This document shows positions 5,886 through 60,824 of a stretch of DNA of 64,000 bases, one piece after another (the first letter of the stretch is position 1; every line of letters begins with the position of its first letter). The stretch is taken from contig NZ_QODK01000007.1 of the NCBI RefSeq assembly GCF_003324485.1, positions 62,001 to 126,000 of the forward strand. Reading direction: 5' to 3'. A program made the position numbers and the translations under genes. This DNA comes from Cohaesibacter intestini (GTDB lineage: Bacteria > Pseudomonadota > Alphaproteobacteria > Rhizobiales > Cohaesibacteraceae). The notes under the pieces are model-generated. The model saw only the letters and a list, made by a program, of their open reading frames with translations. It made no database searches and was not told the DNA's origin.

Positions 5886-6037
5886 AGTCGTTACTTTTTC
5901 CAAACAATAAATGCCAAAAATTCCTGTCGTCAGAAACACCTAAGCAAATCGAATACTAGTTCCAAAATCGTTTTCGCGATATAATTTACTTAAAACAATT
6001 CAAAGTTAGTTCGTGCTTTCTGAAAAGGAGGATCGTC

Positions 6038-6892
6038 ATGACACGTTTTGTCACGCTGAACCAATATATCAATACATGGGAATGCGACGAAAATGATCAT
6101 ATGAACGTTCAGTTCTATTTCTCGATGTTCGATGATGCGAGCAAGCTGTTTGCTTCCTGCAACAAGATGGAAGATGCATTCTCCAAGCGCATCAGTCGCC
6201 ATGTCCGGTTCCATTCGGAATTGAGAAGTGGATCGCAAGTGCGCATTCTGACCTCGCTGGTGACGCCGGAAACCGACGATGGCATGCCGGAAAGTGGCTG
6301 CTTCGTTCAGCATGTGATGGAAAATATCACCAACGGGCTGGTCGCGGCTTCAGCGCTCGATCTTTATGAGGGAACCGCCTGGCCAAGCCATGCCAACCAT
6401 CAAGACAAGATCGACGACAATGTCATGCCACGCGCCCTCAAGCATGACGCGGATTTCTCCCTGAAATCACCGGAGGATTTCGGCGAAACCCTGATTGGTC
6501 GCGGCATCGTCCATCCCGCCATGTGTGATGCCACCGGTCATGCCCGCGATCAGGCCTATATCAGCGCCGCGTCGGATGTCGGGTCCCATGCATGGGCGCA
6601 GGTTGGAATGAACAGCAACTGGCTGAAGGTCAACGGCTTTGGTCGTGTATCGATCGAAATGCGGCTCTGTGTGCTGGAAGGCATGAAAGCCGGGGATCAA
6701 TTTAGCATCCATGTAGCCTTCACAAGCCTGCAGCCCAACATGTTCACGATGCGCTATGACTTCTTCGATATCCGCGATGGACGCCATATCGCCTTTGTTG
6801 ACACCGCTGCCATGGTGTTCAGTGTCGCAACAAGACGCTCGAACCATTTGCCGGACTTTGCCAAAGAAGCCATCAAGGAAAGGATGATTTGA
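6038..6892 (+). CDS. Thioesterase-like double-hotdog protein, copy A
   Basis: This 284-residue protein resembles 4HBT-type (hotdog) acyl-CoA thioesterases. DENDHMNVQFYF near residue 20 matches the family signature with catalytic Asp followed by H-x-N and a Tyr. The length and a second conserved block starting near residue 150 (RGIVHPAMCD, then HAWAQVGMNSNWL) suggest two fused hotdog domains. The start has a strong AAGGAGG six bases upstream, and a TATAAT box at 5980-5985 may be its -10 element. A clear paralogue follows on the same strand. The substrate is unknown; a long-chain or carnitine-type acyl-CoA would suit the fatty acid genes nearby, but that is a guess. Confidence 0.75.
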   Translation: MTRFVTLNQYINTWECDENDHMNVQFYFSMFDDASKLFASCNKMEDAFSKRISRHVRFHSELRSGSQVRILTSLVTPETDDGMPESGCFVQHVMENITNGLVAASALDLYEGTAWPSHANHQDKIDDNVMPRALKHDADFSLKSPEDFGETLIGRGIVHPAMCDATGHARDQAYISAASDVGSHAWAQVGMNSNWLKVNGFGRVSIEMRLCVLEGMKAGDQFSIHVAFTSLQPNMFTMRYDFFDIRDGRHIAFVDTAAMVFSVATRRSNHLPDFAKEAIKERMI

Positions 6893-44493: not shown

Positions 44494-45588
44494 TCAGTCC
44501 TTGGCGGCGTAGATATCGACTGCGAAGTGGCTGGCATAAAGTTCTGCCAACCGGCCCTTCTGGGCGAGGCGCAACAGCCCATAATTCAGCAAGGTACGAA
44601 TGCCGGTCCGATCCCGGCCATAGGCAATCGACATGCCTTCGCCGAAGAAGTGGGCGTCATAATAGGGCTTGCCAGCGAAAGCGATGCCGTCTTGTTCATC
44701 CGTGACGAGAGGCAACAGCTGGAACGCATCGCCGAAGATCGACTGAACCTTGCCCTCTTCCAGCAATTGACGCGCGACCGCCATATCGGTAACGGGCACC
44801 CGATTGACCTTGGGGAAGTAGGTGCGCAAGTAAGCCTCATGGGCAGACCCGCCGCGCACGGCCACCGGGACAGCATCCATCCCTGTCTTGTCGAGTTTCA
44901 AGAGTGTGCCGGTTTTGCGAACAAAGCGCCCCGGTCGCTTGAGATAGACCTTGGTGAAAGCCAGTTTGTCCTGAACCGCCTGCTGATTGGCGATGCCGGC
45001 AATCGCTGCGTCGGCGCGACCATCGGAAATCAGGGTCGGGATTTCCTCGAAGGCGACCAGCTTGAGGGTGCAAGCAATGTTCAGCTCCTCACAGAGTGCG
45101 CGCACCAGCTCGACATGATAGCCCTGAGGCAGATCCTCCTCCCCTCGATAATTGAAGGGTGGGAAGTCATCGGTGGTCAACAAACGCAACCCCTGATCGA
45201 GCAGGTCCTGATCAGGCTGTTTCGGACGCTCTCGCACATCAATGAAGCTGGTGAAGCCGGCATTGACCCATTGGTGTGATCCAATGGGACCATCAATCTG
45301 CTGATTGCGGCCACGGCGGCTCAGAATGTTGGTGGTTTCATTGCCCCCCTCGTCCTGCTCTTCATCCAGCGCGTTGACAGTCGGATCTTCCGGCTCCTCC
45401 TGCTGGGCATTTGCCTGTATGGATCCCAGACTTGCTGTCGCGAGGCAGAGCACAAAAAGAAGAGAGACACGGGCGCCTGAGCGCGAAATTGCGCGTCGGG
45501 ACCGCAACTTCTGACGATATTCTTCGAAAAATGCAAGAATATCGTGAATAATACCACCCTGTGTTGTATGAAGTTGCGTATCCTTCAT
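44494..45588 (-). CDS. Family 3 solute-binding-like protein (transporter substrate-binding domain)
   Basis: The predicted 364-residue product has a hydrophobic export segment (VSLLFVLCLATASLGSIQANA), but it begins about 40 residues after the ATG, so either the signal is atypical or the true start is downstream. An acidic linker is followed by an SBP_bac_3 domain: LRLLTTDDFPPFNYRGEEDL, QGYHVELVRALCEELNI and GRADAAIAGIA. These proteins bind amino acids or opine-like solutes for ABC importers or sensors. No permease or ATPase gene is nearby. It is divergent from the membrane glycosyltransferase, with a 211-base shared promoter region. Confidence 0.8.
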   Translation of the reverse strand: MKDTQLHTTQGGIIHDILAFFEEYRQKLRSRRAISRSGARVSLLFVLCLATASLGSIQANAQQEEPEDPTVNALDEEQDEGGNETTNILSRRGRNQQIDGPIGSHQWVNAGFTSFIDVRERPKQPDQDLLDQGLRLLTTDDFPPFNYRGEEDLPQGYHVELVRALCEELNIACTLKLVAFEEIPTLISDGRADAAIAGIANQQAVQDKLAFTKVYLKRPGRFVRKTGTLLKLDKTGMDAVPVAVRGGSAHEAYLRTYFPKVNRVPVTDMAVARQLLEEGKVQSIFGDAFQLLPLVTDEQDGIAFAGKPYYDAHFFGEGMSIAYGRDRTGIRTLLNYGLLRLAQKGRLAELYASHFAVDIYAAKD

Positions 45589-45799
45589 TGAAATTGCGAA
45601 ACCCCTATGCCACTCTTTCAGGTAGTGTTGCTCTTGTCCAATATTCATCTGCCAAGAGCAAGCAAAGCTGACTTTAGACCTTAATTTAATCGTTTGATCA
45701 CTGACACCAAAATGAATTTGCTCCGCACATTTCAGCGCATCACGCGCGGACCCTTGTTGATTTACTGTGTTGGTATAGCGGCATTTACCGAGCCTTGTC

Positions 45800-47854
45800 A
45801 TGGCCTTTTTAAACAAGGAATTGAAAAAGCCTGATCCGGGCCCGATTGCCTCGGCCCTGCTGGCTCAGACGGAGGATGGATCTCCTCCTCCGCCTCCGTT
45901 CTTTCACGCAGAAGAGGCGACGAACGACCGCCCCATTCTTCCCTTCCATCTCTCTGTCCTGACGGTGATCGCAGACAAGGCGGACTGGCTGTGGCATTTG
46001 ATCGACACCTATGCACTGAGGTCTGACAACTCCCTAACCCATGATCTCCTAGCGTCCGGTCAGATAGACGAAATGCGCTATTTTGCCGAAGCCGCCCGCC
46101 GCCTGGGGGTGCCGTTTCTGTGCCATGTGCCCGTTGCGGCTTTGCATCCCTTCCCCGACGAGGTGCTGCTCGAAGGCATCCATGATCTTGATTGGGTGAT
46201 GATGTGGCCACCTGAAGGACCGGACGGACAGGAGGCAAACCAGAGAAGCCAATTGCTCTGCGCCCCTAAGGGTGAGGCGCTTGATCGGCTGGAACACTCA
46301 TTGCAGGATATGCCCGATCTGCGGCAACGCATTTGCCTGACGGTTCCCTCTGTTCTGCAGGCTGCCCAGAGGGCCGCAGCGAAGGAGCGGGCGCTCACCA
46401 CGCGTGTCTATCAGCTCAAGCAAAAGCAGCCAGACTTGTCTGCCCATAAACGGATTGGTCATTTCAACCGCTTCGTGCTTGTGTCTTTGGTGTTTGCTGC
46501 GATCGCATTGGCATTTCTGTTTCCACCCATAGCGATTGCCTTCAATATCCTGTCAATCATGGTCTTTCTGTCCATTGCCGGGCTACGAATTGCTGCCATA
46601 CTGGCTGCCAAGCGTCTGGAGCAGGCGCAGGCACTTTGTTTTGAGCAACTGTTTGCCAGCCCGATTGTCGAAGAGGAATGGCCCAGCTACACGGTGCTGG
46701 TGCCGCTCTACAAAGAAGCCTCCATTCTGGGCGATCTGATTTGCTGTCTCACCCAGCTTGATTATCCGCGTGACAAATTGAGCATCCAGTTGCTGGTCGA
46801 GGCGGACGACCATGAGACATGGCAGGCGCTGGCCGGGATGAAGCTGCCACCCGCCTTCACGGTGGTGTCCGTCCCTATTCATGGGCCGCGCACCAAGCCC
46901 AAGGCGCTGAATTATGCACTCGCCTTCGTCAAGTCAGAGTTGGTGGTGATTTATGATGCCGAGGACCGCCCCAACCCGCTGCAATTGAAAGAAGCTGCGA
47001 TGCGGATGCGAGCGGGCGGTGAAACCCTCGCCTGCCTGCAGGGACGATTGGCCATCGACAATGGCAATTCACGCTTTCTCAGTCGTCAGTTCGCCGTGGA
47101 ATATGCGGCCTTGTTTGACGGCTTCCTGCCCTATCTTGCGGACAAGGGGCTGCCCCTGCCCCTTGGTGGCACTTCCAACCATTTCCGCACCGATATTCTG
47201 AAGGCTGTTGGAGGCTGGGATCCTTACAATGTCACGGAAGATGCCGATCTCGGCCTGCGTCTGACGCGTCTGGGCTATCGCATCGAGGTGCTGCAAACCG
47301 AAACCTGGGAGGAAGCGCCGGAAAGCTATCCTCAATGGGTTCGTCAGAGGACACGGTGGTTCAAGGGCTGGATGCAGACATGGCTGGTGCATATGCGCAA
47401 TCCGCTGGCTTTGTGGCGCTCCCTTGGGACGGCGTCCTTTCTCACCTTTCAGAGCATCATTGGCGGTATGTTGATTTCCGCCCTCATCCATCCGGTCTAT
47501 ATTCTGTCCTTCGCGCTGACCTTTCTGGCCCTGCAGATCCCGGCAAACGAGGCTTCCTCGCTATTCTGGAGTTTGGTGATCGCCAATTCGGTCAATCTGC
47601 TGCTGGGTTATGGGGGCGCAATGAGTTTGGGTTATCGCAAGGCGCGGCAACGCTATGGCTATGGTCTGGCAACAATATTGGCGATGCCGGTCTATTGGCT
47701 GATGATGACACCGGCCGCCTGGCGCGCGCTGGTTCAACTGCTTGATAACCCGCATCATTGGGAAAAGACCGAGCATGGGCTGTCACTGGATCGACCATCG
47801 CTGGACAGCGCAAGTCCGCTTGGCGTTCTGACCTGCGAAAAGGGACCCGATTGA
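45800..47854 (+). CDS. Membrane family 2 glycosyltransferase, cellulose-synthase-like
   Basis: This 684-residue protein has an N-terminal soluble region (about 1-205, reminiscent of GspE-type N-terminal domains), two transmembrane helices, a GT2 catalytic domain and C-terminal membrane helices. Catalytic features are EADDHE, IYDAEDRPNP, the acceptor-side TEDADLG and RQRTRWFKG, corresponding to the D, DxD, TED and QxxRW motifs of processive synthases. It probably polymerises an extracellular beta-glycan. No PilZ domain, BcsB or cellulase partner gene is seen, so it is unlikely to be canonical BcsA. Confidence 0.88.
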   Translation: MAFLNKELKKPDPGPIASALLAQTEDGSPPPPPFFHAEEATNDRPILPFHLSVLTVIADKADWLWHLIDTYALRSDNSLTHDLLASGQIDEMRYFAEAARRLGVPFLCHVPVAALHPFPDEVLLEGIHDLDWVMMWPPEGPDGQEANQRSQLLCAPKGEALDRLEHSLQDMPDLRQRICLTVPSVLQAAQRAAAKERALTTRVYQLKQKQPDLSAHKRIGHFNRFVLVSLVFAAIALAFLFPPIAIAFNILSIMVFLSIAGLRIAAILAAKRLEQAQALCFEQLFASPIVEEEWPSYTVLVPLYKEASILGDLICCLTQLDYPRDKLSIQLLVEADDHETWQALAGMKLPPAFTVVSVPIHGPRTKPKALNYALAFVKSELVVIYDAEDRPNPLQLKEAAMRMRAGGETLACLQGRLAIDNGNSRFLSRQFAVEYAALFDGFLPYLADKGLPLPLGGTSNHFRTDILKAVGGWDPYNVTEDADLGLRLTRLGYRIEVLQTETWEEAPESYPQWVRQRTRWFKGWMQTWLVHMRNPLALWRSLGTASFLTFQSIIGGMLISALIHPVYILSFALTFLALQIPANEASSLFWSLVIANSVNLLLGYGGAMSLGYRKARQRYGYGLATILAMPVYWLMMTPAAWRALVQLLDNPHHWEKTEHGLSLDRPSLDSASPLGVLTCEKGPD

Positions 47855-47915
47855 AAATCAGGCCCCTTGTCAGACTGGCGCATCAAGCATAGCCCCAAGA
47901 CTTGCTGGGTGTGGT

Positions 47916-48380
47916 TTAGCGCACTTGCGGTGGCAGGCCACGGCCACGGGTGCGGATCACGACGCGCTGACCACGGGCATCCCGGTAGGCGGTGGTGCGG
48001 ATATTGGTGCGCGGATCGTAGGAGCTGGCGAAGGTCGGGCGCTGCTTGGTTTTGTAGCGGATCTTTTTCTTGCGAATGATTTTGCGCTTCAGAACCCGAC
48101 CATGGCGATCTCGCTCGACATAAACGTGGGTGTTGCGAGGGCCAACACGGGGATAATGGCTGGACACCTCACCGCCGTCCCGCTTGTGCAGGGTGGCGCC
48201 AATCAAGCTACCAATCAGGAAACCAGCAGCCCCGATGGCGGCAGCGTTGCCCATATCATTGCCATGCGACCGGTGGTGGCGGAACTCACCTGCATGGACC
48301 GAGGTTGTCGCGGTGGTTGCCGCTGAGGTGATGGACAGGATCAGGGCGATCATGATGGATTTGGTGGGTGTCTTGAACAT
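47916..48380 (-). CDS. Small exported basic protein with glycine-zipper segment
   Basis: I do not recognise a family. The 154-residue product has a signal peptide (IMIALILSITSAATTATTSVHA), then a His-rich stretch and a glycine-zipper-like hydrophobic segment (AAAIGAAGFLIGSLIGATLH). A strongly basic tail follows (KRKIIRKKKIRYKTKQRP and repeated Arg-Gly). GGAGAGA lies before the ATG. It may be a periplasmic or outer-membrane associated protein. It converges on the glycosyltransferase gene. Confidence 0.6.
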   Translation of the reverse strand: MFKTPTKSIMIALILSITSAATTATTSVHAGEFRHHRSHGNDMGNAAAIGAAGFLIGSLIGATLHKRDGGEVSSHYPRVGPRNTHVYVERDRHGRVLKRKIIRKKKIRYKTKQRPTFASSYDPRTNIRTTAYRDARGQRVVIRTRGRGLPPQVR

Positions 48381-48612
48381 GGTGTCTCTCCATTGGGTGT
48401 CTGAGTGAACTGTCTGGGTTGGCTGTCTGCTTTCTCTTGCTGCTTGCTATGTCAATTTGTCGCAGTGCCCGACCAATCGGTTCAAACTTTTTTCACCAAA
48501 CCTCTTGTGGTGCTGACAAGGGGTGCCAAGCGCTGCATAATCAACGTCATGTTTGGTCTTTGCCCGATGACGGGAGGCCATGGCATTGCCGACACCAACC
48601 AGCGAGATTTTC

Positions 48613-49629
48613 ATGCGTTCCAGTCACGATCACCCCAAGGGCACGTTGCACAACCTGTCCATCCAATCCGATTGCCTCCAATCCAACCTGCTGGGTGATC
48701 CGACCGAGCGAGAGGTGGTGGTCTATGTTCCCCATGGCCATGATGGACAGGGTTTGCCATTGCTGGTGGATCTGGTCGGCTTCACCGCCGGTGGGCCAGC
48801 GCATGTCAACTGGAAGAATTTTGGCGAGAATGTCCCCGAGCGGGTCGACCGGCTGATTGCGTCCGGCGACATGGACCCCGCGGTCATTGCCTTTCCGGAT
48901 TGCTTCACCCGGCTGGGAGGCAACCAATATATCAATTCGGTCGCCCTCGGGGCGTGGGAGGATTTCCTGATCAAGGAAATGCTGCCTGCGATTGAAGGCC
49001 AGTTTGGCTGTGGCGGTGTGGGCAAGCGCGGCGTCTTTGGCAAGTCATCGGGCGGCTATGGCTCAATGGTCCATGCCATGTTGCATGCGGATGTCTGGTC
49101 GGCGGCTGCCTGCCATTCCGGCGATATGGCGTTTGAGCTTTGCTATTTGCCCGACATGCCGACCGCCTTGCGGGCGTTGGCGGCCAAAGACCATTCGATA
49201 GAGGCCTTCCTGACCGACTTTGAAAAGGGGCCGAAATTTTCCGGCAAGGACATGCATGTGCTGATGTCACTGGCGATGGCCGCGACTTATGATCCGGACC
49301 CGGATGCCTTTTGCGGGGTGCGGTTGCCGGTGGATCTGGAGACCTGCAGCCTGATCGAGGAACGCTGGGCCAATTGGCTGAAATGGGACCCGGTGGTGAT
49401 GGTCGAGCGGGCGGAAGTGATTGACAATCTGAAATCGCTCAAGGGCCTGTGGCTCGAATGTGGTGATGTCGACCAATATAATCTGGTCTATGGGGCCCGG
49501 CGTCTGCACAAGAAACTGGAAGCCGCCGATGTGCCCCATGTCTATGAGGAGTTCTCTGACAATCATTCCTCGATCGACTATCGGATGGACCAGACCCTGC
49601 CATGGATGGCCCGGCTGTTGAGTGCATAA
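48613..49629 (+). CDS. Putative esterase (esterase D/enterochelin esterase-like fold)
   Basis: This about 338-residue cytosolic alpha/beta hydrolase matches the putative esterase family: VVYVPHGHDGQGLPLLVDLV near the N-terminus, the nucleophile elbow FGKSSGGYGSM, ECGDVDQYNL (acid residue) and a C-terminal SDNHSSIDYRM with the His. No signal peptide is seen. An upstream ATG at 48580 would add 11 residues, but its GGGAGG is only two bases away, so I prefer 48613. The substrate is unknown. A terminator follows at 49642. Confidence 0.82.
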   Translation: MRSSHDHPKGTLHNLSIQSDCLQSNLLGDPTEREVVVYVPHGHDGQGLPLLVDLVGFTAGGPAHVNWKNFGENVPERVDRLIASGDMDPAVIAFPDCFTRLGGNQYINSVALGAWEDFLIKEMLPAIEGQFGCGGVGKRGVFGKSSGGYGSMVHAMLHADVWSAAACHSGDMAFELCYLPDMPTALRALAAKDHSIEAFLTDFEKGPKFSGKDMHVLMSLAMAATYDPDPDAFCGVRLPVDLETCSLIEERWANWLKWDPVVMVERAEVIDNLKSLKGLWLECGDVDQYNLVYGARRLHKKLEAADVPHVYEEFSDNHSSIDYRMDQTLPWMARLLSA

Positions 49630-49641
49630 GCCGACTTTGTG

Positions 49642-49677
49642 AAGGCGGCGGCTTGAGACTTTCTCGCGCCGCCTTTT
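49642..49677 (+). terminator. Intrinsic terminator after the esterase gene
   Basis: AAGGCGGCG pairs perfectly with CGCCGCCTT (16-nt loop), followed by TT. Confidence 0.7.
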
Positions 49678-49783
49678 GCACTCTTCACAGAAATGGGTCT
49701 CCGTGCTTTTTGTTGGTTTACGCTGATCGAGCAAATCAGATAGGCTCGCAGCAGATTCCCGCCCTTTGAGAGAATGCCGTTTC

Positions 49784-51709
49784 ATGACGCCTGTCGCCCA
49801 CCCTTCTGCCGTGCCTGCCCAGATCGACGATGCGGTGTTGGAGCAGGAGGGACGTATTGATACGGCCTTTGATCCTGATTCACCCCCTGCCGAGCAGGCC
49901 TTACAGATCCTCAAACGGGTCTATGGCTATGACCAGTTTCGTGGCAGTCAGGCGGAGGTGATTGAAAGTCTGCTCAATGGCCACAGCACCCTTGCCGTGA
50001 TGCCGACCGGCATGGGCAAGAGCATTTGCTTCCAGATCCCCTCGATGATCTTTGGTGGCCTGACTTTGGTCGTCTCGCCCTTGGTGGCCCTGATGGAAGA
50101 TCAGGTGATGGCATTGAAGCTCGCCGGTGTGGCGGCAGAAACGCTCAACAGCTCCCGCTCGCGCGAGGAAAATGTCGCGGTCTGGCGCCGGGTGGCAGCT
50201 GGAGAGATTTCGCTGCTTTACATCGCGCCGGAACGGCTGATGACCGAACGGATGCTGGCAGCGCTTGCCAAATTGCCGGTGCGGCTGATCGCGATTGACG
50301 AAGCGCATTGCATTTCGCGCTGGGGGCCGAGCTTCCGGCCCGATTATGAGGGTCTGACGCGGCTGAGTGATTTCTTCCCCAATGCGCCGGTGGCAGCACT
50401 GACAGCGACGGCGGATGAAGCCACCCGGCAGGATATTGCCGACAAGTTGTTTCCGCGCGATGCGTTTGGCAAACGCCTTGGCAATGTGATGGTGTCGGGC
50501 TTTGACCGTCCCAATATCCGCCTCACTGTTGCGCAAAGACGCGACTGGAAAAAGCAGCTGCTCGATTTTGTCGATGCGCGGCGGGACCAGTCAGGCATTG
50601 TCTATTGCCTTTCGCGCCGCAAGACCGAAGAAGTGGCCGATTTCCTCAAGGGGCATGGGGTGAAAGCCTTTGCCTATCATGCGGGGATGGATGCCAGCAT
50701 TCGGGCTGCCCATCAGTCGCTTTTCATGCGTGAAGCGGGCACCGTGATGGTGGCGACCATTGCGTTCGGGATGGGGATCGACAAGCCTGATGTGCGCTAT
50801 GTCTTTCACACCAATCTGCCCGCCAATATGGAAGCCTATGCGCAGGAAATTGGCCGTGCGGGCCGCGATGGCGCGCCATCAGAAGCCATGATGCTCTATG
50901 GCCTTGATGATATCCGCATGCGGCGCAGCTTCATCGACAATGAGGGCGGCGACGAGGATCATCTCGCCCGCGAGCATAAACGCCTTGATGCGTTATTGGC
51001 CTATTGCGAGGCACCATCCTGTCGCCGTCAGGCCTTGCTCAGCTATTTCGGCGAGGACATCAAGCCTTGCGGCAATTGCGATATTTGCCTTGATCCGCCG
51101 GAGCTGAAAGACGGCAATGTCGAAGCCCTACGTCTGATTGATGTGGTTGAGGCGACGGGCGAAACCTTCGGCACGGTGCATCTGATCGACATTCTGCGCG
51201 GCATGAGCCATGAGAAGATCAAGAAATATCGCCATGACAAGCTGGAGTGCCACGGGGTGGGCAAGGCCACCTCCAAGGAAGATTGGCGAGCGATCCTCAG
51301 GCAGATGGTAGCGGGCAATTTCCTGCGTCTCGACATCCAAAATCACGGGGCGCTGAAGCTGACCGCCAAGTCGGATGCCTTGCGCGCGGGCGACATTCGC
51401 TTTGCCTATCGCACCGACGTGATGGGGCCGAGCGATCTCTATCGTCCGAAACGCGCCAAAAGCGCCCTGCCCGATCTGGACCCGGCGGACAAGGACTTGT
51501 TCGAGGCATTGCGCAATGCCCGATCCGAGTTGGCGCGCGAGCTCAAGGTGCCCGCCTATGTGGTCTTTTCCGACAAGACCCTGCATGATATGGCGATCCA
51601 GAAACCGACCACCCGCCCCGATTTTCTGCATATTCACGGGGTGGGCAGCTCAAAGCAGAAGAAATTTGCCGATCACTTCATTGATGTCATCGAAGAATGG
51701 ATGGGCTGA
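49784..51709 (+). CDS. recQ: ATP-dependent DNA helicase RecQ
   Basis: This 641-residue helicase has the SF2 core (AVMPTGMGKS Walker A, AIDEAHCIS DEAH box, QEIGRAGRDG motif VI), the RecQ zinc-binding Cys cluster (CGNCDICLDPP) with winged helix, and a C-terminal HRDC domain (about 560-640; KVPAYVVFSDKTL). It unwinds DNA in recombination repair. The aromatic-rich loop after the DEAH box reads SRWGPSFRPDY, whereas E. coli RecQ has SQWGHDFRP. The first residues vary between family members; the ATG at 49784 is used rather than a TTG at 49766. Confidence 0.93.
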   Translation: MTPVAHPSAVPAQIDDAVLEQEGRIDTAFDPDSPPAEQALQILKRVYGYDQFRGSQAEVIESLLNGHSTLAVMPTGMGKSICFQIPSMIFGGLTLVVSPLVALMEDQVMALKLAGVAAETLNSSRSREENVAVWRRVAAGEISLLYIAPERLMTERMLAALAKLPVRLIAIDEAHCISRWGPSFRPDYEGLTRLSDFFPNAPVAALTATADEATRQDIADKLFPRDAFGKRLGNVMVSGFDRPNIRLTVAQRRDWKKQLLDFVDARRDQSGIVYCLSRRKTEEVADFLKGHGVKAFAYHAGMDASIRAAHQSLFMREAGTVMVATIAFGMGIDKPDVRYVFHTNLPANMEAYAQEIGRAGRDGAPSEAMMLYGLDDIRMRRSFIDNEGGDEDHLAREHKRLDALLAYCEAPSCRRQALLSYFGEDIKPCGNCDICLDPPELKDGNVEALRLIDVVEATGETFGTVHLIDILRGMSHEKIKKYRHDKLECHGVGKATSKEDWRAILRQMVAGNFLRLDIQNHGALKLTAKSDALRAGDIRFAYRTDVMGPSDLYRPKRAKSALPDLDPADKDLFEALRNARSELARELKVPAYVVFSDKTLHDMAIQKPTTRPDFLHIHGVGSSKQKKFADHFIDVIEEWMG

Positions 51710-51776
51710 GGCAGGCATTCCCTACAATTGTAATTGTGTTTTTCACGTCCCCTTTAAGTGCCTCATCTAAACTGCC

Positions 51777-51799
51777 TCCCCATATTAGAGGGGATAGAC
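51777..51799 (+). promoter_or_regulatory. Hairpin covering the rebB ribosome binding site
   Basis: TCCCC (51777-51781) can pair with GGGGA (51790-51794), the Shine-Dalgarno core, across an 8-nt loop, five bases before the ATG at 51800. Such a weak stem could restrict translation in a temperature- or factor-dependent way. Confidence 0.45.
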
Positions 51800-52147
51800 A
51801 TGACCAATTCTTGTAAAGTGATCATCGCAACCATTCTGGTTGGCACAGCAGTTTCAACCGGCGCGCTTGCTGCGGACATTGTTAATCCGCAAATCACGGA
51901 TGCGGTTACGCAGACCAATGTGAAGGTGCTGGGCGATGCCCCGGCAGTGGCGACAGGCAATCTCTATCAGGCCAGCGCACAAGCGCTCAGCAACGCTGCG
52001 CATAACGCGACAAGCGCCCAACAGAATGCGAGTACTGTGCTGCAGGCCACCACCACACAAGGTGTATCGACGCTGTATGAGGCGGATACCGCCTCGACCG
52101 GGATCGCTGAGAGCAAGATTATGGGTGAGTCCGGCCCCGCGCATTGA
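51800..52147 (+). CDS. rebB: RebB-family R-body protein with predicted signal peptide
   Basis: This 115-residue protein matches RebB, the R-body structural family: NPQITDAVTQTNVKVLGDAP, then GNLYQASAQALSNAAHNATS, AQQNASTVLQATTTQGVSTL and the ending DTASTGIAES. R-bodies are coiled protein ribbons that extend explosively in Caedibacter and others; RebB is a main building block. Unusually, the first 25 residues form a Sec-type signal (VIIATILVGTAVSTGALAAD) with an A-L-A cleavage site, while known RebB proteins I recall begin directly with the conserved part. No other reb gene is nearby. GGGGA six bases upstream supports this ATG. A 14-base palindrome lies at 51723-51736 in the promoter region. 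Confidence 0.85.
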   Translation: MTNSCKVIIATILVGTAVSTGALAADIVNPQITDAVTQTNVKVLGDAPAVATGNLYQASAQALSNAAHNATSAQQNASTVLQATTTQGVSTLYEADTASTGIAESKIMGESGPAH

Positions 52148-52268
52148 CCAAATTGCGAACCGGTCACCATCACATCCCATCACTCTCGCGTGAGAGCGCC
52201 AGATTGGGCGAGACTTTGCCACATTGGAAGGCCACAAATGAGACATGACTTCTAATCGGGAGAGAAAT

Positions 52269-52889
52269 ATGTCTCACTTTTTCGCCTCAGCCCTGATGGC
52301 AGCATCGCTCATTGCGGCTTCTGCCAATGCCAGCTCTGCCAACGACAATTTGAAAACCGCCATCTTTGCTGGCGGCTGTTTCTGGTGCGTCGAGAAGGAT
52401 TTTGACCATGTGAAGGGCGTGGTCGAGACCATTTCGGGCTATTCTGGTGGCAACACGAACGAAAATGTCACCTATAAAAATCACAGCGCCGACAAGCATC
52501 GCGAGGTGGTCAAAATCACCTATGACAGCAGCAAGGTCAGCTATGATCAGTTGCTCGATATTTTCTGGCGCTCGGTCGATCCAACCGATGGGGGCGGCCA
52601 ATTCTGTGATCGGGGTCACAGCTACACCACCGCCATCTATACGCTGAATGACGAACAGGCCAAGCTGGCGGCTGCCTCCAAAGCCAAACTGGAAGCCGAT
52701 AAGATCCTCAGTGACCCGATCCAGACCGAAATCGCCCCGGCCATGCCTTTCTTTGCGGCGGAAGATTATCATCAGGATTATTACAAGAAAAATCCAATCC
52801 GCTACAAATATTACCGCTATGCTTGCGCCCGTGATGAACGCATCGAGCGGGTATGGGGCGAACAGGCGCACAAAGGCATCATGAAGTAG
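52269..52889 (+). CDS. msrA: Peptide-methionine (S)-S-oxide reductase, exported
   Basis: This 206-residue MsrA has the catalytic motif GGCFWC (Cys37, with a further Cys at 40), the conserved GYSGG, FWRSVDPTDGGGQFCDRG and EDYHQDYY. A signal peptide (FFASALMAASLIAASANASS) suggests periplasmic repair of oxidised methionine; the ATG at 52269 follows GGGAGAG. A second candidate Met at 52245 would only lengthen the N-terminus. The 3' end is partly duplicated downstream (52952-53015), described separately. It lies between rebB and the Spx/ArsC-like gene. Confidence 0.92.
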   Translation: MSHFFASALMAASLIAASANASSANDNLKTAIFAGGCFWCVEKDFDHVKGVVETISGYSGGNTNENVTYKNHSADKHREVVKITYDSSKVSYDQLLDIFWRSVDPTDGGGQFCDRGHSYTTAIYTLNDEQAKLAAASKAKLEADKILSDPIQTEIAPAMPFFAAEDYHQDYYKKNPIRYKYYRYACARDERIERVWGEQAHKGIMK

Positions 52890-52951
52890 CGCAGACGGGC
52901 GCAAGCTTATTCCTGTCGATAGGCTTTCTGCCTTGGGCAGGCCTATCTTGT

Positions 52952-53015
52952 CGCCCGTGATGAACGCATCGAGCGGGTATGGGGTGAGAAGGCGCATAAA
53001 GGCATCATGAAGTAA
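52952..53015 (+). pseudogene. Duplicated 3' fragment of msrA
   Basis: 63 bases (52952-53014) repeat the msrA tail (52826-52888) with four substitutions and an offset of 126 bases. In frame it encodes ARDERIERVWGEKAHKGIMK followed by TAA. It has no start of its own and is too short to function. Confidence 0.85.
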
Positions 53016-53112
53016 AATACACCCTGCTCTGTGTCAGGTGCGGCTTTGCATGGTTCGGGGGATCGGATAGCCTGTCTCACACATCCGAATCCCTTCCAAT
53101 GCGAGTTGCTCC

Positions 53113-53454
53113 ATGAAACTCTATGGCCTCAAAAGCTGTGACACCTGCCGCAAGGCGCTGAAATCCTTCGAAGCAGCGGGCAAGCCCGTCACCTTTGTCG
53201 ACCTTCGTGCTGATGGTTTCTCAGAGGATGACCTTGATCGCTGGCTCGGGGCCGTTGGCTGGGAGGTGCTGCTTAACCGGCGCTCGACCACCTGGCGAGA
53301 CCTGCCCGAAGGTGACAAGGCAGATCCAGATGAAGCCAAGGCACGGGCCCTCATTCTGCAGCATCCCACCCTCATCAAGCGCCCGATTTTTGATGACGGC
53401 ACACAAATCGTGGTAAGCTTTGGCAAAGCCCAGCAGGTGACCCTGCTGGGTTGA
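53113..53454 (+). CDS. Spx/MgsR-ArsC-like thioredoxin-fold protein
   Basis: This 113-residue protein starts MKLYGLKSCDTCRKAL, with the CxxC motif of the Spx/YffB branch of the ArsC family, and has the conserved NRRSTTWRDLP and LIQHP-TLIKRPIF block. In proteobacteria such proteins are of uncertain function (glutathione-related or reductase-like). It reads in the same direction as msrA and DUF1176 and may be part of a stress-related run. The next gene starts 41 bases downstream. Confidence 0.85.
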   Translation: MKLYGLKSCDTCRKALKSFEAAGKPVTFVDLRADGFSEDDLDRWLGAVGWEVLLNRRSTTWRDLPEGDKADPDEAKARALILQHPTLIKRPIFDDGTQIVVSFGKAQQVTLLG

Positions 53455-53495
53455 CCTTTTTCTCATTTGCTGACGCACAGACAGGAGCGCCCGCC

Positions 53496-54560
53496 ATGAT
53501 CCGCCAAAGCCTGACATTCCTCACCATGCTGCTGCCCATTTTGGGAGCGAGCGGGCCAACACAGGCTGCGAGCTATAAGGAAATCCGCGACGTCACCGTC
53601 TGGTGCGATGTGGCGATGAGCTGCTCGCTGACCCTGTCTGCGGACAAGTATCAAGGCGTCACCGCCTTGGTCCTGCATCGGGCCAACCGGTTGAATGATG
53701 CGGCCTCGGTGCGCTTCACCAGCGCCGTGCCCATTGTCGAAGGTGCCATGCTGTTATTGACCATTGATGGCAAGGACAGCCTGACGCTGATCGCCAACAA
53801 GACCGGCATCAAGGAAGACGGCAACAGCTATCACGAGACCAACCCGCATTTGATCGACTGGATCATCAAGGGCATGAAAGCAGGCTCGACGCTCAGCATC
53901 GCCATCGACAGTGCCGGGCAATCGAGTGAAACCGGCTTTTCCCTGTCGGGCAGTGTCGCAGGCATGATCTTCATGGACGAATATCAGGACCTGCTTGAGA
54001 CCTCCTATGCTTTCCATGTCACCGGCACCAAGCGTCCCCACCCACGGCTGCCGATTGTTGGGGTCGAACAGCGCAGTCAAGTGCCGCGCGCCATCTGGAA
54101 TGGTTGGTTCGCCAAGGAACAAGCCAGTTGCCATTTTTATCGCGAAAGCATCCAATTGCCGGGCAACGGGTTTCGTTTGACCCTGAGGTCAGGGGATGTC
54201 TATGGTCTGCCTTGCGGGGACGGCGGCGCCTATAATCAGCCATTTGCGGCCTTTTTCGTGCCGAAGAATGAAAATCTACCGATCAAGGCAGTGCCCTTCC
54301 TGTTGGACGGCAACAATACGGACAGCGGTGCTGGACCGGATCTTTGGAATATCGGTTACGATGCCAGAAAAGGGGTGCTGACCAGCTACTTCAAAGCGCG
54401 TGGTTTGGGCGATTGTGGCGTGCAAACCAAGTGGCAGTTGAATGAAGTGGGCGACGCTGTGTTTTTCGAGGCAATGGAAATCCGCGAAAAAGGCGATTGC
54501 GATGGCAATTATGCTGGCGGGCCGGACAAGTGGCCCAAGACGTGGCCTGTTGAGGACTGA
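53496..54560 (+). CDS. DUF1176 domain-containing exported protein
   Basis: This 354-residue protein starts with a signal peptide (LTFLTMLLPILGASGPTQAA) and matches DUF1176: CDVAMSCSLTL, ALVLHRANRL, then the C-terminal CGVQTKWQLNEVGDAVFF and EKGDCDGNYAGGPDKWP. Conserved Cys residues suggest disulfides in the periplasm. The function is unknown. AGGAG lies ten bases before the ATG at 53496; the frame is open further upstream. A bidirectional terminator follows. Confidence 0.82.
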   Translation: MIRQSLTFLTMLLPILGASGPTQAASYKEIRDVTVWCDVAMSCSLTLSADKYQGVTALVLHRANRLNDAASVRFTSAVPIVEGAMLLLTIDGKDSLTLIANKTGIKEDGNSYHETNPHLIDWIIKGMKAGSTLSIAIDSAGQSSETGFSLSGSVAGMIFMDEYQDLLETSYAFHVTGTKRPHPRLPIVGVEQRSQVPRAIWNGWFAKEQASCHFYRESIQLPGNGFRLTLRSGDVYGLPCGDGGAYNQPFAAFFVPKNENLPIKAVPFLLDGNNTDSGAGPDLWNIGYDARKGVLTSYFKARGLGDCGVQTKWQLNEVGDAVFFEAMEIREKGDCDGNYAGGPDKWPKTWPVED

Positions 54561-54565
54561 CACGC

Positions 54566-54594
54566 AAAAGCCCGCCGGACTGGCGGGCTTTTTT
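54566..54594. terminator. Bidirectional intrinsic terminator
   Basis: AAAAGCCCGCC/GGCGGGCTTTT with a 5-nt loop separates the DUF1176 gene from the convergent cupin-like gene. Confidence 0.9.
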
Positions 54595-54623
54595 GTCTTA
54601 TTGATCGACAGTTCGTTTGATGA

Positions 54624-55559
54624 TCAGGCTTTTGCCATCATCGGAATGTCGGCAAGACCCATTGGCTTGCTGGCGTCGATTTTGAAATCGACCTCGTCCC
54701 TGAATACCGTCTTCCTCTCCATGCCCAGCTTTTTCCAAGCGAGCGAAAGCGCCGCTTTCGGATAGACATGGAAGCCATACGGCTGATGGTTACCCGCCTG
54801 ATAGCCGAGCGTGCGGCGCAGGACGCCATTGCCATAATGAACCGCATAAAGATTGCGCACGTCGGTGTCCCAGTGCTCCAGCGTCAGGGAAATGTTGAGG
54901 CAATCCTCATTCTCGACGCGGTGCGGCGCATGGAGTGGCCAATAGGCCATCTGACCGGGTTCGAGGTGATACACTTCCGCATAATCGTCATACCATTCCT
55001 CGAAGGGAAACTCCTCGCGGGTTTCCTTCATGATCACCCGCTGGCGATCGATGTTGGGTAGGAAAGGGTCGCGATTGGGATAGATATAGACCTTCTTGCG
55101 GCCCTTGATTTGCCAGAGATGCTGCCCCGGCAGGTCAAAGTGATAGAAGGTCTGGCATTTGGGCGATGTGATCAGAATGCCCATATTGCGTTTGTATGTG
55201 TGAAGCCCCGGCATGTGGGCCTCGAATTCCTCAAACAACTGATCCAGCACCGCTTTATAGCGAGGGTCGAAATCCTGACAATGACGAATATTCAGCCAGA
55301 GGCGGCCATTCTTGATCGCCTCCATCGTCTCCTTGCCCGAAGCACCGCCAACAATGCCCTCGCGCCATTCGGCGCGCTTGGTGTCATGGCCCATGGTGGC
55401 GAGATTGTAATGCTCTGGCGGGGTTTGCTCGATAAGCTCGGCGATGGCTTCTTCCGAGAAAAGCGACGAGGTATGCAGGCTGTGGTCAATGACCACGGTT
55501 TCCTTGCTCCAAACCTTGGCAAAATGTGGCTTCCAGCCGGTAACAATCCTATCTGACAC
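54624..55559 (-). CDS. JmjC/cupin-like Fe(II)-2-oxoglutarate oxygenase-type protein
   Basis: This 311-residue protein has a JmjC-like beta-helix: the facial triad HxD in QTFYHFDLPGQHLWQIKG and a distal His in PLHAPHRVEN, with KKVYIYP and the Lys residue that commonly binds 2-oxoglutarate nearby. Such proteins hydroxylate peptides or small molecules, or in some cases act as regulators. No DNA-binding domain is visible. The upstream 300 bases are AT-rich and probably contain its promoter. The specific substrate is unknown. Confidence 0.78.
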   Translation of the reverse strand: MSDRIVTGWKPHFAKVWSKETVVIDHSLHTSSLFSEEAIAELIEQTPPEHYNLATMGHDTKRAEWREGIVGGASGKETMEAIKNGRLWLNIRHCQDFDPRYKAVLDQLFEEFEAHMPGLHTYKRNMGILITSPKCQTFYHFDLPGQHLWQIKGRKKVYIYPNRDPFLPNIDRQRVIMKETREEFPFEEWYDDYAEVYHLEPGQMAYWPLHAPHRVENEDCLNISLTLEHWDTDVRNLYAVHYGNGVLRRTLGYQAGNHQPYGFHVYPKAALSLAWKKLGMERKTVFRDEVDFKIDASKPMGLADIPMMAKA

Positions 55560-55896
55560 TTAAAAATTCCCCCAATTGCAAGACATCAATACGGGAAAGG
55601 ATCGGCCAAGCAATCAAAGCAGCTTCGACATCTCATCTCTACGGCTGCCAGACCGTCATACGATCTCTTTCTTCAATACTTGTTGGCGACGATATTAGCA
55701 TAGACCCTAAGAAAACCTTCATTTCAGATGCATCTATTATTGGTTATGCTTAATCCCTCTGATTAGCGTTAATGAAAGACTACCCACCAAGCACTTTCTA
55801 CAAACACAACTGACGCAAAAGGCCCCGCAGGATAAATCCGGCGAGGCCTCACTCCATGTCGCTTTGTAAGGGATGTGGAACCCTCAGGCTTGCGGA
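55560..55896. other. AT-rich spacer with one terminator
   Basis: Besides the terminator of the peroxidase gene at 55817-55848, this 337-base region contains the promoter of the cupin-like gene; no coding region is supported. Confidence 0.45.
55817..55848 (-). terminator. Intrinsic terminator of the cytochrome c peroxidase gene
   Basis: On the minus strand GGCCTCGC pairs with GCGGGGCC (one wobble) and is followed by TTTTGCG. Confidence 0.75.
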
Positions 55897-56952
55897 CTAT
55901 TTGGCAACCATCGCTTCCGGTTTTGGCGTTTCTTGCGTTTCAACCGGCAGGATGGGATAGTCGACCTTTGGCTGTTCCCCCGTCAGGGTTTTCAGGAACG
56001 CGGTGATTTTCTTGATTTCCTCATCACTCATTTCCTCGCCAAGCTGACTGGTCGCCATGATGGCAACGGCCTGCTCGAGATCCCACACCTTGCCCGAATG
56101 GAAGTAAGGCGCGGTCAACTCGATGTTGCGCAGTGGGCCAGCCCGGAAGACATATTCCTCATCCGCCGTTTTGGTGACGGCAAAACGGCCCTTGTCACCG
56201 GACGGCAAAATGTCTGCGCCGGGTTTCTCAACAACGCCGAATGGATAATAGCCTTCCCCGCCAATGTTGACGCCGGCATGACAGGCAGAACACCCCTTGT
56301 CCATGAAGAGCTGCAAGCCTTCCTGCTCCATCGCGGTCATCACCTTGGTGTTGCCTTCAAGGAACTGGTCAAAGCGCGAATAAGGCGTGATCAGTGTTGC
56401 CTCGAAGGCTTCGATGGCCTTGGCCATATTGTCAAACGTGACCGGCTTTTCCTCTCCGGGGAACGCCTTGGTAAAGGCCTCGACATAAGCAGGCATGCTC
56501 TTCAATGTGGTTTCAACACGCTCAGGCGTTGACGCCATTTCGACGCCTGCCTGAACCGGACCCTTGGCTTGTGCTTTCAGATCTTCGGCACGGCCATCCC
56601 AGAATTGCGCGATGTTGAAGACCGCATTCAGAACGGTTGGCGCATTGCGTGGTCCTTTCTGCCATCCATGGCCGATGGATGTCTCCAGATTGTCATCTCC
56701 TCCCATGCCAAGATTGTGGCAGGTATTGCACGAAATCAGTGCCGAGGAGGACAGGCGCGGTTCAAAGAACAACATCTTGCCAAGCTCGATCTTGTCGCTG
56801 GTCACTGCATTGTCCTTGACCGCCGGAACCACCGAGGGGATCGGTTGGAAATAGTCTTTCGCTTCTTCCAGAAGCTCGTTGGCAGAGGCGATTTGCGAGG
56901 CCGCCAGGACTGCAGCGCCCGCCATCAATGCAACAGCAATTTTCGAGGTCAT
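55897..56952 (-). CDS. Dihaem cytochrome c peroxidase (CcpA/MauG family)
   Basis: This 351-residue periplasmic protein has a signal peptide (VALMAGAAVLAASQIASANE) and two haem-binding motifs, CNTCH and CSACH. GRNAP-type RNAPTVLNAVFN and FWDGRAEDL around the first haem and AGPLRNIELTAPYFHSG near the C-terminus are family signatures. The enzyme reduces hydrogen peroxide with electrons from cytochrome c. The gene is monocistronic by its terminator and divergent from the AhpD-like gene. Confidence 0.92.
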   Translation of the reverse strand: MTSKIAVALMAGAAVLAASQIASANELLEEAKDYFQPIPSVVPAVKDNAVTSDKIELGKMLFFEPRLSSSALISCNTCHNLGMGGDDNLETSIGHGWQKGPRNAPTVLNAVFNIAQFWDGRAEDLKAQAKGPVQAGVEMASTPERVETTLKSMPAYVEAFTKAFPGEEKPVTFDNMAKAIEAFEATLITPYSRFDQFLEGNTKVMTAMEQEGLQLFMDKGCSACHAGVNIGGEGYYPFGVVEKPGADILPSGDKGRFAVTKTADEEYVFRAGPLRNIELTAPYFHSGKVWDLEQAVAIMATSQLGEEMSDEEIKKITAFLKTLTGEQPKVDYPILPVETQETPKPEAMVAK

Positions 56953-57505
56953 CAGACCCTCCCTTTAGTTTAGAACAGCTACAAAGTAATACAGAGTGCC
57001 GCTTTGTCGCATTGCGCCAGTCGATGGAATAATTTATTTAGAGGAGCTATAAAGAAGGCTGTAAATATCTGAATTTTCAGTCTAATGGGGATCTCTGCGA
57101 AAATTTCACAATGGAATTTCCGCGGCGGGCTCTTTGCGCTCATCTTCTGGCTTTGAAGCGCATTTTGGCTTGAAACTGGCCCTGTTTCCTCCCTCCCCAT
57201 CTACAATCCGGTTTTCAATCTCACTGGTGTGGCAATCTGTCCAATAGCGCTTTTCCTGTGCCGATTTGCCGTTGATGCTCAGGCGTGCCTGCCAGCAGGA
57301 GCCATTTTCCTGACGCGCCATTCTGTACCGATTGGTAAATAATTTTCCGCCTGCGAGCAGGATCAGAGCAAAAGTTGCCAAATGCAGGTAGACAACCAGT
57401 CTATTATCTTGATCCTTCCGAGGCCTGCCCCATATCGGGCATTCCCATGGCAGACATGCCACTCACCCTTATCCCCCCGATATCTTCAAAAAAGAGATCC
57501 GTTCC
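56953..57505. other. Spacer upstream of the peroxidase gene
   Basis: Contains the promoter of the peroxidase gene and the doubtful small ORF at 57106-57462. I see no other feature. Confidence 0.4.
57106..57462 (-). CDS. Doubtful small membrane protein ORF
   Basis: A 118-codon GTG-initiated ORF encodes one transmembrane helix (VVYLHLATFALILLAGGKLF) and a hydrophilic Cys- and Lys-rich tail. It has no recognised family. The start lies 44 bases from the divergent AhpD-like gene, and the ribosome binding site is weak. It may be real or an accidental frame. Confidence 0.3.
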   Translation of the reverse strand: MACLPWECPIWGRPRKDQDNRLVVYLHLATFALILLAGGKLFTNRYRMARQENGSCWQARLSINGKSAQEKRYWTDCHTSEIENRIVDGEGGNRASFKPKCASKPEDERKEPAAEIPL

Positions 57506-58060
57506 ATGACCAAATTCACTGCTCACACCATTGCGTCTGCACCTGTTGAGGCCAAGCCATTGTTGGAAGGTGCCAAAAAAGCCGTTGGCTTCGTGCCGAA
57601 CCTCTATGCCAACATGGCGGAGGCTCCTGCGATGCTTGAGGCTTATTTGACCCTTAGCCAGATTTTTGGCAAAACCAACCTCAGCGAGACCGAGCGCCAG
57701 ATCATTCTGATGACCAACAATCGGCTGAATGGCTGCACCTACTGCATGGCCGCTCATACCACCATCATGCAAGGGGCCGGGATCGACGATGGCGTGATTG
57801 CCGCTTTGCGGTCCGGTAGCCCGCTCAGCGACGCCAGACTGGAAGCCCTGCGTCAGTTTTCCATCGTAGTGTATGAAACGCGGGGCAATCCGTCCGAAGG
57901 CGATATCCAGTCGTTGCTCGATGCAGGCTATAGCCGACAGACGGTTCTGGAAGTCGTGATCGGTACCGGCCTCAAGACCCTGTCCAACTATACCAATCAC
58001 ATTGTTGGTACTGAGGTCGACGCAGCCTTCGCACCAAATGTCTGGTCACCAGTCGGCTGA
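57506..58060 (+). CDS. Carboxymuconolactone decarboxylase/AhpD-like family protein
   Basis: This 184-residue all-helical protein has the AhpD-type CxxC site in NGCTYCMAAHTTI with a conserved His, and the LLEGAKKAVGFVPNLYANMA helix typical of the uncharacterised peroxidase-related branch. Such proteins reduce peroxides or peroxiredoxins through the CxxC pair. The gene is followed by a strong terminator and may respond to oxidative stress together with the divergent dihaem peroxidase. Confidence 0.88.
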   Translation: MTKFTAHTIASAPVEAKPLLEGAKKAVGFVPNLYANMAEAPAMLEAYLTLSQIFGKTNLSETERQIILMTNNRLNGCTYCMAAHTTIMQGAGIDDGVIAALRSGSPLSDARLEALRQFSIVVYETRGNPSEGDIQSLLDAGYSRQTVLEVVIGTGLKTLSNYTNHIVGTEVDAAFAPNVWSPVG

Positions 58061-58391
58061 CCGCAGCCTGATTGCAAAGATCTGCATATCTCGCAATGGT
58101 CAGGATTTATGAAAGGGCCCGGAAGGTGGGCCCTTTTTTTGATCAACAGAAAGCAAAAGACAAGATGTCCTCCCTGTTGTTGCTGCAAGGGAAGTTGTTT
58201 TTCATATCATTGAGCAAAACCAATTAAGCGGCAGAGAAATAAGTATTTTTGACAAGAATGGAGCTTCTCCACTCAACGGTGATTACTACATTTACACAGA
58301 AACCCGTCTTTTTGTGCTGCCCTTTACTCGCTCTTAAATGAAGGTGAGCACACTGACCCGGACTTTTACGGAATGGGAAGGAACCGGGTAG
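58061..58391. other. Promoter region of the first chemoreceptor gene
   Basis: After the terminator at 58112-58140 this AT-rich stretch (58180-58390) presumably contains the chemoreceptor promoter; I could not fix a -35/-10 pair. Confidence 0.4.
58112..58140 (+). terminator. Intrinsic terminator of the AhpD-like gene
   Basis: AAAGGGCCC and GGGCCCTTT flank a 7-nt loop, and the T run continues for seven bases. Confidence 0.9.
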
Positions 58392-60824
58392 ATGAATGCC
58401 TTCAAGTCGCTAAACGATCTGAAATTGCCTTACAAAATTGGTGGAGGCTTCACCATCCTGATGGTCCTGACGGCTTTCGTTGGCACGGTTGCGACCATCT
58501 CCATCCGGGACTTTCAGAGGCAGGCCACGATCAACGAGCAATCCGTCGCTGTGCTTGATCAGCTGCAGCAGTTCACCAATCACCGGGCCCTCTATTTCAC
58601 CGACCGCAAGATTGAACAGGCAGAACGCGTCAAATCGGATATTCAAACGCTCGGAACCGCTCTGAATGGCCTGCAACGAAGCTTGACCGATGATGATGCA
58701 GCCCAATCGACAATCGGCGGAGCGATGGATCTCGCCTCCAAGCTGGAAAGTGATTTCCAAAATGTGACGACCATCATCGAAGCGCAAAAGCTGCAAACCT
58801 CAAAGTTGCTCAGCAATGTCGCCATGCTGGTCGGCAATGCCAACAATATCTCGACCAGCCTTCAGAAAATGAAGAGCACGGCGAGCCGACAGGCCAAAAA
58901 GGCAGACAGCCTGAAAAACCGTGCTGACAAGGTCGTCCGCCTGATCAATCAAATGCAGAATGAAGCTCTGGTGATCGAGAAAGCCCTTGGCGTTCCTGCC
59001 CCCCTGGCCGAAAAAGCCTTCTGGACAGAGCAGCTCGAGCGCGCGGACCGGATGGCTCAGCATGTCAACAAAGCAGTGCGCATCAAGCTTGACGGCGTGG
59101 ATTCGGCACGGCTGAAAGACTTGAAAAGTCAGGTTGCCAGCCTCAGACAAGCCATCGATGCAACCACAAACATGCCGTTTGCCCCAGAGGAGAGCCTCAA
59201 ACTGACGGGCGCACAGCTGGCCGCCGGGCATGTGGCATCCCTGTCCAGCACGCTGCGCGATGACATCTATGTCGTGTCCGACGAGGCCAAGAAAAGCGCG
59301 CGCATGCTCAACAGCAAGTTGATGATTGCCGACCTGATCTCGACCAACGCGGCGAAATTTCAGCGCGAAGCGCTGGAAACCAAGGCAGCGACAATGGAGT
59401 TGTTTTCGGGTCTGAGTGATCTCTCAGCAGATGGCGTCGCGTTGCGCATTGGCACCTTTCGCAATCTGGCGAAGCTGCTGATTACGGACGCGCAAAATGT
59501 TCCCGAAATCCAGTCGCTGACCAACACGATCGAAGACGAAATCAACGCCTATGAAACCGAGTTCGAACTGATGCAAGCCGGTGCGGTTCAGGTCGCGTCC
59601 AAGCGCGATCAGTTGATTGCGGCGTCCGGTCAAGTTCAGACGATTGTCGACGACTTGATCAATTCACAGTCCGAAATGGCCCTTGGGGCGGCAGCGGCGG
59701 CGGTGACCCTCATCCTTGGCTCTGTTCTGGTTGCCTTGATTGTGGGCGCAGGCTTTGCCGTCATCATCACTCTGGCTGTGTCACGACCGATCCGCACACT
59801 GACCGCAACAATGGGTGAATTGGCCAATGGCAATCTGCAAATTTCGATTGCCGGACGGGATCGTGGTGATGAAATCGGCGATATGACCCGGGCGGTGCGG
59901 GTGTTCCGCGAGAATGCCAAGGAGCGCATGACGCTTCAGGAAGCCTCTGCGCTTGAAGAAGAGAAACAGCATGAGCGCCAACGGCATATCGAACAGTTGA
60001 TCAGCCAGTTCGACGCCCGTATGCAAGGGTTGTTGACCGGGGTCGATGGGACGGCCCGCGAGATGAAACACACAGCGGAGTCGCTTTCCCAAATCGCGAT
60101 GGAGAGTGCAGAACAGGCTGAGAATACCAGCCAGTCGAGCCAGAACGCATCGGTTAGCGTTGGCCATGTGGCAAGCGCTGCCGAAGAACTGGCGGCCTCC
60201 ATTCAGGAAATTGGCACGCAGGTGCAGCGCACCGAGCAGGTGGTCTCCGACGCCAGCCAATCAACCCTGAGCACCAATGAGAAAGTCAAGGAGCTTGCCA
60301 ACGCTGCGGATCATATCGGGGACGTGGTCACGCTCATTCAGGCCATTGCCGAACAGACCAACCTGCTGGCCCTGAATGCCACCATAGAGGCGGCCCGTGC
60401 AGGCGAAGCCGGCAAGGGGTTTGCGGTCGTTGCTGCGGAAGTGAAGAATCTGGCCAATCAGACCTCCAAGGCGACAGAGGAAATCAGCGGCCAGATTTCA
60501 TCCATTCAGACCTCGACCGGTGTCACCGCTCAGGCCATTGCCGATATCGTAGAGACAATGGGTCAGGTGGATTCCCATATTGGCGCCATTGCGGCGGCGG
60601 TGACCCAGCAAAATGTCGCCACATCGGAAATTTCCGGAAACGTCCAGACCGCGTCACTTGGAACCCAACAGGTCCAGACCAATATGGACGGCCTGTCAGA
60701 CGCGGTCGCCCAAACCAGTGCGTCGTCACAAACTGTGCTCGAGGCTTCCTCTTCACTGGAGGACAAAACACGGCAGTTGCAGAATGAAGTGGCGCAGTTC
60801 CTCAAGGATGTTGCGGCAGCCTGA
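58392..60824 (+). CDS. Methyl-accepting chemotaxis protein with large helical periplasmic domain
   Basis: This 810-residue chemoreceptor has two transmembrane helices (about 17-37 and 432-465) bracketing an all-helical periplasmic region of about 390 residues, larger than a simple four-helix bundle and similar to HBM-type sensors. A HAMP domain (about 466-520) precedes the MA signalling domain with the hairpin tip [19 protein letters not shown] near residue 653. No C-terminal methylesterase-binding pentapeptide is present. AAGGAA precedes the ATG. Its ligand is unknown; no che genes are in the window. Confidence 0.92.

Follow-up and report, generated by a model that had tools for sequence, protein, structure and literature searches.

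The window, a stretch of 64,000 nucleotides from a contig of Cohaesibacter intestini, contains at 51800-52147 (stop codon included; all window features given below lie on the forward strand) a gene encoding a protein of 115 amino acids that belongs to the RebB family. In a profile search the protein matches PF11747 with an E-value of 2.3e-28 and 98.5 bits along the full model (1-68 of 68), which is over the curated cut-off of 24 bits, scored on the whole protein. The Pfam domain extends over residues 32-99 (51893-52096), and the initial annotation, in which the RebB body had been described as intact, is borne out by this match. The gene is preceded by GAGGGG (51788-51793), which, as read from the sequence, resembles a ribosome-binding site and lies 6 nucleotides ahead of the ATG. 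Its neighbors are recQ upstream (49766-51709, start codon uncertain) and msrA downstream (52269-52889); the matches of both agree with the earlier assignment that these genes and not other reb genes flank it. A promoter scan found none, the sole terminator-like site lies inside msrA, and neither Rfam families (45000-60000) nor tRNAs (whole window) were found. A structured 5' leader of rebB was considered and rejected, the folding being no better than that of shuffles (z −0.48).

The msrA gene has features of its own. Its product carries by eye an N-terminal leader (MSHFFASALMAASLIAASANAS) and therefore looks periplasmic. This msrA is present in 17 of the 18 genomes of the genus with at least 68% identity, a second MsrA being also there at 40-45%. 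The 3' end of the gene (52826-52888) is duplicated beyond its stop at 52952-53014, 59 of 63 positions being identical; since a sister species (genome G012) has a more diverged copy (54/66), the duplication looks older than the split from G012.

The first 24 residues of the RebB protein (51800-51871; MTNSCKVIIATILVGTAVSTGALA) form a putative Sec signal peptide. By the simple rule used here for all signal-peptide calls, they have the layout recognized by Sec and signal peptidase I: a positive n-region with one lysine (K6), a hydrophobic core without charge and small residues at −3 and −1, contributed by A-L-A at 22-24. The Sec-type signal ending in A-L-A that had been suspected from the sequence is thus recovered with a length of 24 residues. 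Cleavage is predicted after A24 and would yield a mature protein of 91 amino acids (51872-52144) with the N-terminus ADIVNPQITD. Cut in this way the protein starts with ADIVNPQITDAVTQTN, as does the Met-processed RebB L006 from a multi-gene cluster in Myxococcota. Methionine is removed when alanine follows.

A start codon beyond the hydrophobic segment, the weak point foreseen in the initial annotation, was looked for. The in-frame starts ahead of the RebB domain are GTG 51758 (14 codons upstream), ATG 51800 and GTG 51818 (codon 7), the last still preceding the hydrophobic core, and the next one is GTG 51920 (codon 41), already within the domain. Because there is no in-frame ATG, GTG or TTG between codons 7 and 41, every usable start retains the hydrophobic stretch, and an internal start yielding a cytoplasmic protein is ruled out.

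The leader rule itself is loose: when the window protein, which is rich in alanine, was shuffled 10000 times, 1094 of the shuffles passed. All 8 leaders that had been pre-selected by hydrophobicity or by eye passed as well, and none of 53 canonical rows did, a control that is weak by construction because these rows had been trimmed to at most 12 residues ahead of the core. The fairer screen is that of the later locus set, in which 221 loci were read and 572 distinct Reb cores were found at E 1e-3 or better: 46 of these have an in-frame Met, the only start codon tried, 18-75 residues ahead, and 7 pass the rule. The rule counts for less than the recurrence of the leader and the start codons.

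The seven leader-bearing proteins are the window copy, L012, L020, L074 (Maricaulis), L112 (genome G123, family of G061), L117 (G246) and L004 (G040), the six relatives coming from four genomes of the Maricaulaceae group, from G246 and, as a very short protein, from G040. In each of the seven genomes PF11747 matches this one protein and no other, with limits of E 0.01 or 0.001 for the genomes of the six relatives; profile A2 adds a second, weak match in G063 (18.1 bits, E 0.0072). L117 scores 34.3 bits and is over the PF11747 cut-off, L004 with 23.4 bits is just under it, and with the Reb profile built here three of the seven score at least about 100 bits. In its 76 amino acids L004 (1441-1668, minus strand) combines a hydrophobic leader with the motif NAQNQQNILGQAATTQGV and an acidic tail; it may be a relative of the exported branch in minimal form. 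In L012, L020, L074 and L075 the gene has by eye the same Maricaulis setting, which differs from that of the window copy, with an ORF of 320-323 amino acids upstream and a NadB-like ORF downstream. In L075 (G064, 5871-6180), a solitary gene of this type, the leader and the Reb body are in different frames, so that either the gene is broken or the MAG is wrongly assembled there. L046 passed the first hydrophobicity screen and was rejected because it failed the rule; its locus holds 9 Reb ORFs. The initial reading of the window protein is strengthened by this set, in which the predicted leader architecture recurs in other genomes, and always in the only PF11747 match.

The hydrophobic stretch could instead be an anchor that is not cut; the protein would then sit in the inner membrane, with its RebB body to one side of it. 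The predicted cut sites of L012 and L020, which are weak by the simple rule, would fit this, and L012 has no K or R before its hydrophobic core. An A-x-A is, however, suitably spaced in the window copy (ALA), L074 (AEA), L112 (AHA), L117 (ALA) and L075 (AEA), and the window copy, once cut, would have the N-terminus of a native RebB; together these points make an anchor very unlikely. Export and cleavage of the window protein, as predicted from its leader, are highly probable, and since it has an export signal, as have a few lone relatives elsewhere, the protein probably acts outside the cytoplasm.

The genome of C. intestini (4.79 Mb, 27 contigs, 99.37% complete) was searched with PF11747 for other reb genes, as the initial annotation had suggested. 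A single match exceeds the cut-off and two fall under it (E 0.41 and 0.91), so that the gene is a lone one and not part of an R-body system of several, usually clustered reb genes. The window protein was matched in 1 of the 18 genomes of the genus and is absent from the 17 others; among the own genome and 60 relatives, 2 of 61 have PF11747 at E ≤0.01, the second being that of L004. A contig scan of genomes yielded 74 loci. For the order of G061, 23 of the 299 genomes sampled contain RebB, and 14 of these have a single match: five of the leader type (G061, G062, G063, G123, G246), one in pieces (G064) and eight others in which no leader was seen. No leader was found either in the loci read, covering part of the matches, from the nine genomes of this order with at least two RebB matches. 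Profile A2 had matches in 15 of 385 genomes of the class, 24 of 299 of the order of G061, 11 of 137 of the family of G061, 14 of 149 of the family of G246, 11 of 398 of the phylum and 5 of 219 of the own order, these sets overlapping and at most 30 loci being read per set. Most of these matches are ordinary Reb genes, and none of the loci read was of the leader type beyond the seven. Leader-type Reb proteins are rare, in a sampling that is thin outside the Alphaproteobacteria.

Conservation within the exported set is highest in the motif AHNATSAQQNASTVLQATTTQGV (residues 67-89, 51998-52066). In the six full-length leader proteins A67, H68, N69, A70 and T71, Q74 and Q75, Q82 and A83, and T86, Q87, G88 and V89 are invariant. 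Between L074 and L112 the motif (24 codons) has 1, 1 and 11 differences at first, second and third codon positions; the counts are 21, 18 and 33 for the 95 codons of residues 24-118 and 7, 2 and 6 for the 23 codons of the leader. The motif is constrained at the protein level in this pair.

The signatures of R-body Reb proteins are, in the available text of PMC13430693, QITD with flanking prolines, KxxxD/E and QQ(Q). The window copy has QITD, K42xxxD46, P30, P48 and QQ, and in the alignment L012 likewise keeps the RebB signature. In L020, L074, L112, L117 and L004 the signatures are partly lost: the K of KxxxD/E is replaced by E in L020, L074 and L112, the KxxxD/E region is missing in L117, and L004 keeps little beyond the motif. 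The erosion of the N-terminal RebB signature in these diverged members argues against a faithful R-body role there and favors a changed function, whereas the full signature kept in the window protein favors assembly.

These proteins may therefore be exported and yet repurposed as small soluble periplasmic proteins, binding or chaperone-like, that form no polymer. The solitary window gene is consistent with such a role, as are the relatives in which the N-terminal signature is lost but the second-half motif and acidic tails persist, L004 having retained little except the motif. The signature retained in the window copy and in L012, and the high Reb-profile scores of three of the seven proteins, point the other way, and we regard repurposing as a real, if not the favored, possibility.

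For the history of the locus the comparison with G012 is the most informative. In this sister species recQ is 98% identical over residues 211-639 and msrA 89%; the gap between them measures about 213 bases versus about 565 in the window, and its flanks align on either side. Within the gap a stretch corresponding to 51971-52003 of the window is conserved (30 of 33 identical); this 33-nucleotide remnant scores 24 versus a maximum of 13 over 300 shuffles, and in the other 15 relatives, some of them with no recQ seen nearby, the 900 nucleotides preceding msrA score 8-13. Because the remnant lies in the same gap, the rebB gene most likely predates the split between the window lineage and G012 and was then lost in G012; a fresh insertion in the window's own lineage is for this reason unlikely. 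The remnant stretch ends with GCGCAT, which occurs again at 52139-52144 directly before the stop codon in the window, so that loss in G012 by deletion between short repeats is plausible.

The gene is dispensable, since 17 other genomes of the genus lack it and G012 has a mere remnant. It could also be a decaying relic of a reb cluster having no function today, a view to which the split frames of L075 can be added. We consider this unlikely, because the reading frame in the window is intact with a ribosome-binding-site-like sequence ahead of it, the leader architecture has been maintained in several lineages and the changes in the motif between L074 and L112 are biased to third positions.

In a tree of 67 rows and 75 columns the exported rows are placed near genes of Myxococcota clusters. 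The free tree splits the six exported rows; constraining them together raises the likelihood by 7.12 (AU p 0.667), so that with 75 columns a single origin of the exported rows is neither shown nor rejected. A phage origin was rejected, phage records having given no match and searches of viral contigs with either P0001 or A1 no relative. A plasmid origin was likewise rejected: in each of the 17 plasmid records with a match the best place begins at query residue 26 or 28 and thus leaves out the leader.

AlphaFold2 predicts for the window protein (59 rows) one helix from 30 to 110 with an overall value of 70.6, block means of 82-93 over residues 61 to 110 and a pTM of 0.33. The L112 model, made with 15 rows, has a break in the helix at 59-70 but is poor (mean 51.2). 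Neither model informs on assembly, and a solved structure of a relative was not found (best E 0.2).

R-bodies are coiled, extensible ribbons insoluble in SDS. In the available text of PMC8322103 and PMC3764935 they are cytoplasmic and require several Reb proteins, and PMC5209532, as far as accessible, terms them cytoplasmic inclusions. With the R-body proteins RebA/B/D of Caedibacter taeniospiralis and RebP1/RebP2 of Pseudomonas aeruginosa PA14 the window protein shares PF11747, QITD, KxxxD/E, QQ and a long predicted helix; it differs from them by its predicted signal peptide and its single gene. The cytoplasmic-type rows closest to the exported ones in the tree are the Myxococcota cluster proteins L005 and L006, which have QQNANT(V/I)LQATTTQGV in common, L006 starting with MADIVNPQITDAVTQTN; unlike the window protein they have a short N-terminus without a leader, and their loci hold 7 and 6 Reb ORFs, respectively. 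Solitary RebB proteins of the cytoplasmic type (L028, L019, L100) are like the window copy the one PF11747 match of their genome, but they lack a leader.

Two further architectures were seen among the loci. L100, L102, L103 and L104 (G159, G135, G168 and G206) are single cytoplasmic-type Reb proteins beginning with MAFPTNVNDQITDSVSQ and having long Ala-rich tails. In a MAG of Candidatus Endobugula (L078, 5983-6483) an N-terminal RebB part (SQITDAVTQTNVKVLGDAPAIS) is fused in frame to an unrelated stretch that by eye is cupin-like.

In the open-licence literature on RebB and R-bodies, as far as its text was available, we recognized no description of a Reb protein with a signal peptide. In the accessible part of PMC11928666 a Reb homologue is named as one of the marine proteins predicted to be extracellular, directly following proteins in which no signal peptide was detected; like the window protein in our reading it is placed outside the cell, but this is a prediction and that part gives neither locus nor architecture. 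Taxa with a single Reb copy are mentioned in the available text of PMC3583457, and signal peptides were predicted for the Caedibacter proteome without a Reb result being given in that of PMC7297999. The cluster analysis of a 2026 survey excluded synteny patterns in which a cluster had fewer than three reb genes, and the accessible text of this survey mentions neither signal peptide, periplasm, export nor Maricaulis (PMC13430693). Genes like the window rebB would, judged from that text, have escaped the cluster analysis because of this exclusion.

The best reading of these sequences would be a small branch of solitary, Sec-exported RebB proteins acting in the periplasm or outside. We propose that the solitary protein would leave the cytoplasm via Sec, that signal peptidase I would cut the leader, and that the resulting 91-residue, mostly helical protein, its N-terminus then being that of a Met-processed cytoplasmic RebB, would self-associate via the conserved second-half motif to a homomeric assembly in the periplasm or at the surface. 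Such an assembly would meet the outside pH directly and not after lysis. The proposal as a whole, from Sec export to an assembly outside the cytoplasm, is tentative, its chances being in our opinion nearly balanced. Homomeric assembly, even if export is granted, is speculative and somewhat doubtful. The R-bodies described depend on several Reb proteins, which speaks against the proposal; a polymer or fiber formed by the window protein is putative. In its strongest form the idea amounts to an R-body-like system of one exported protein: a RebB lineage would have acquired a signal peptide, parted from the multi-gene clusters and turned into a homomeric ribbon or fiber sufficient in itself, periplasmic or on the surface, that can answer the outside pH without lysis. 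This we consider rather improbable.

The R-bodies described so far are intracellular polymers made from sets of Reb proteins. If true, an exported one-gene branch would separate the ability to form polymers from the remaining R-body system, would offer a minimal protein with which Reb assembly can be tested and would place a possibly pH-responsive polymer beyond the cytoplasm.
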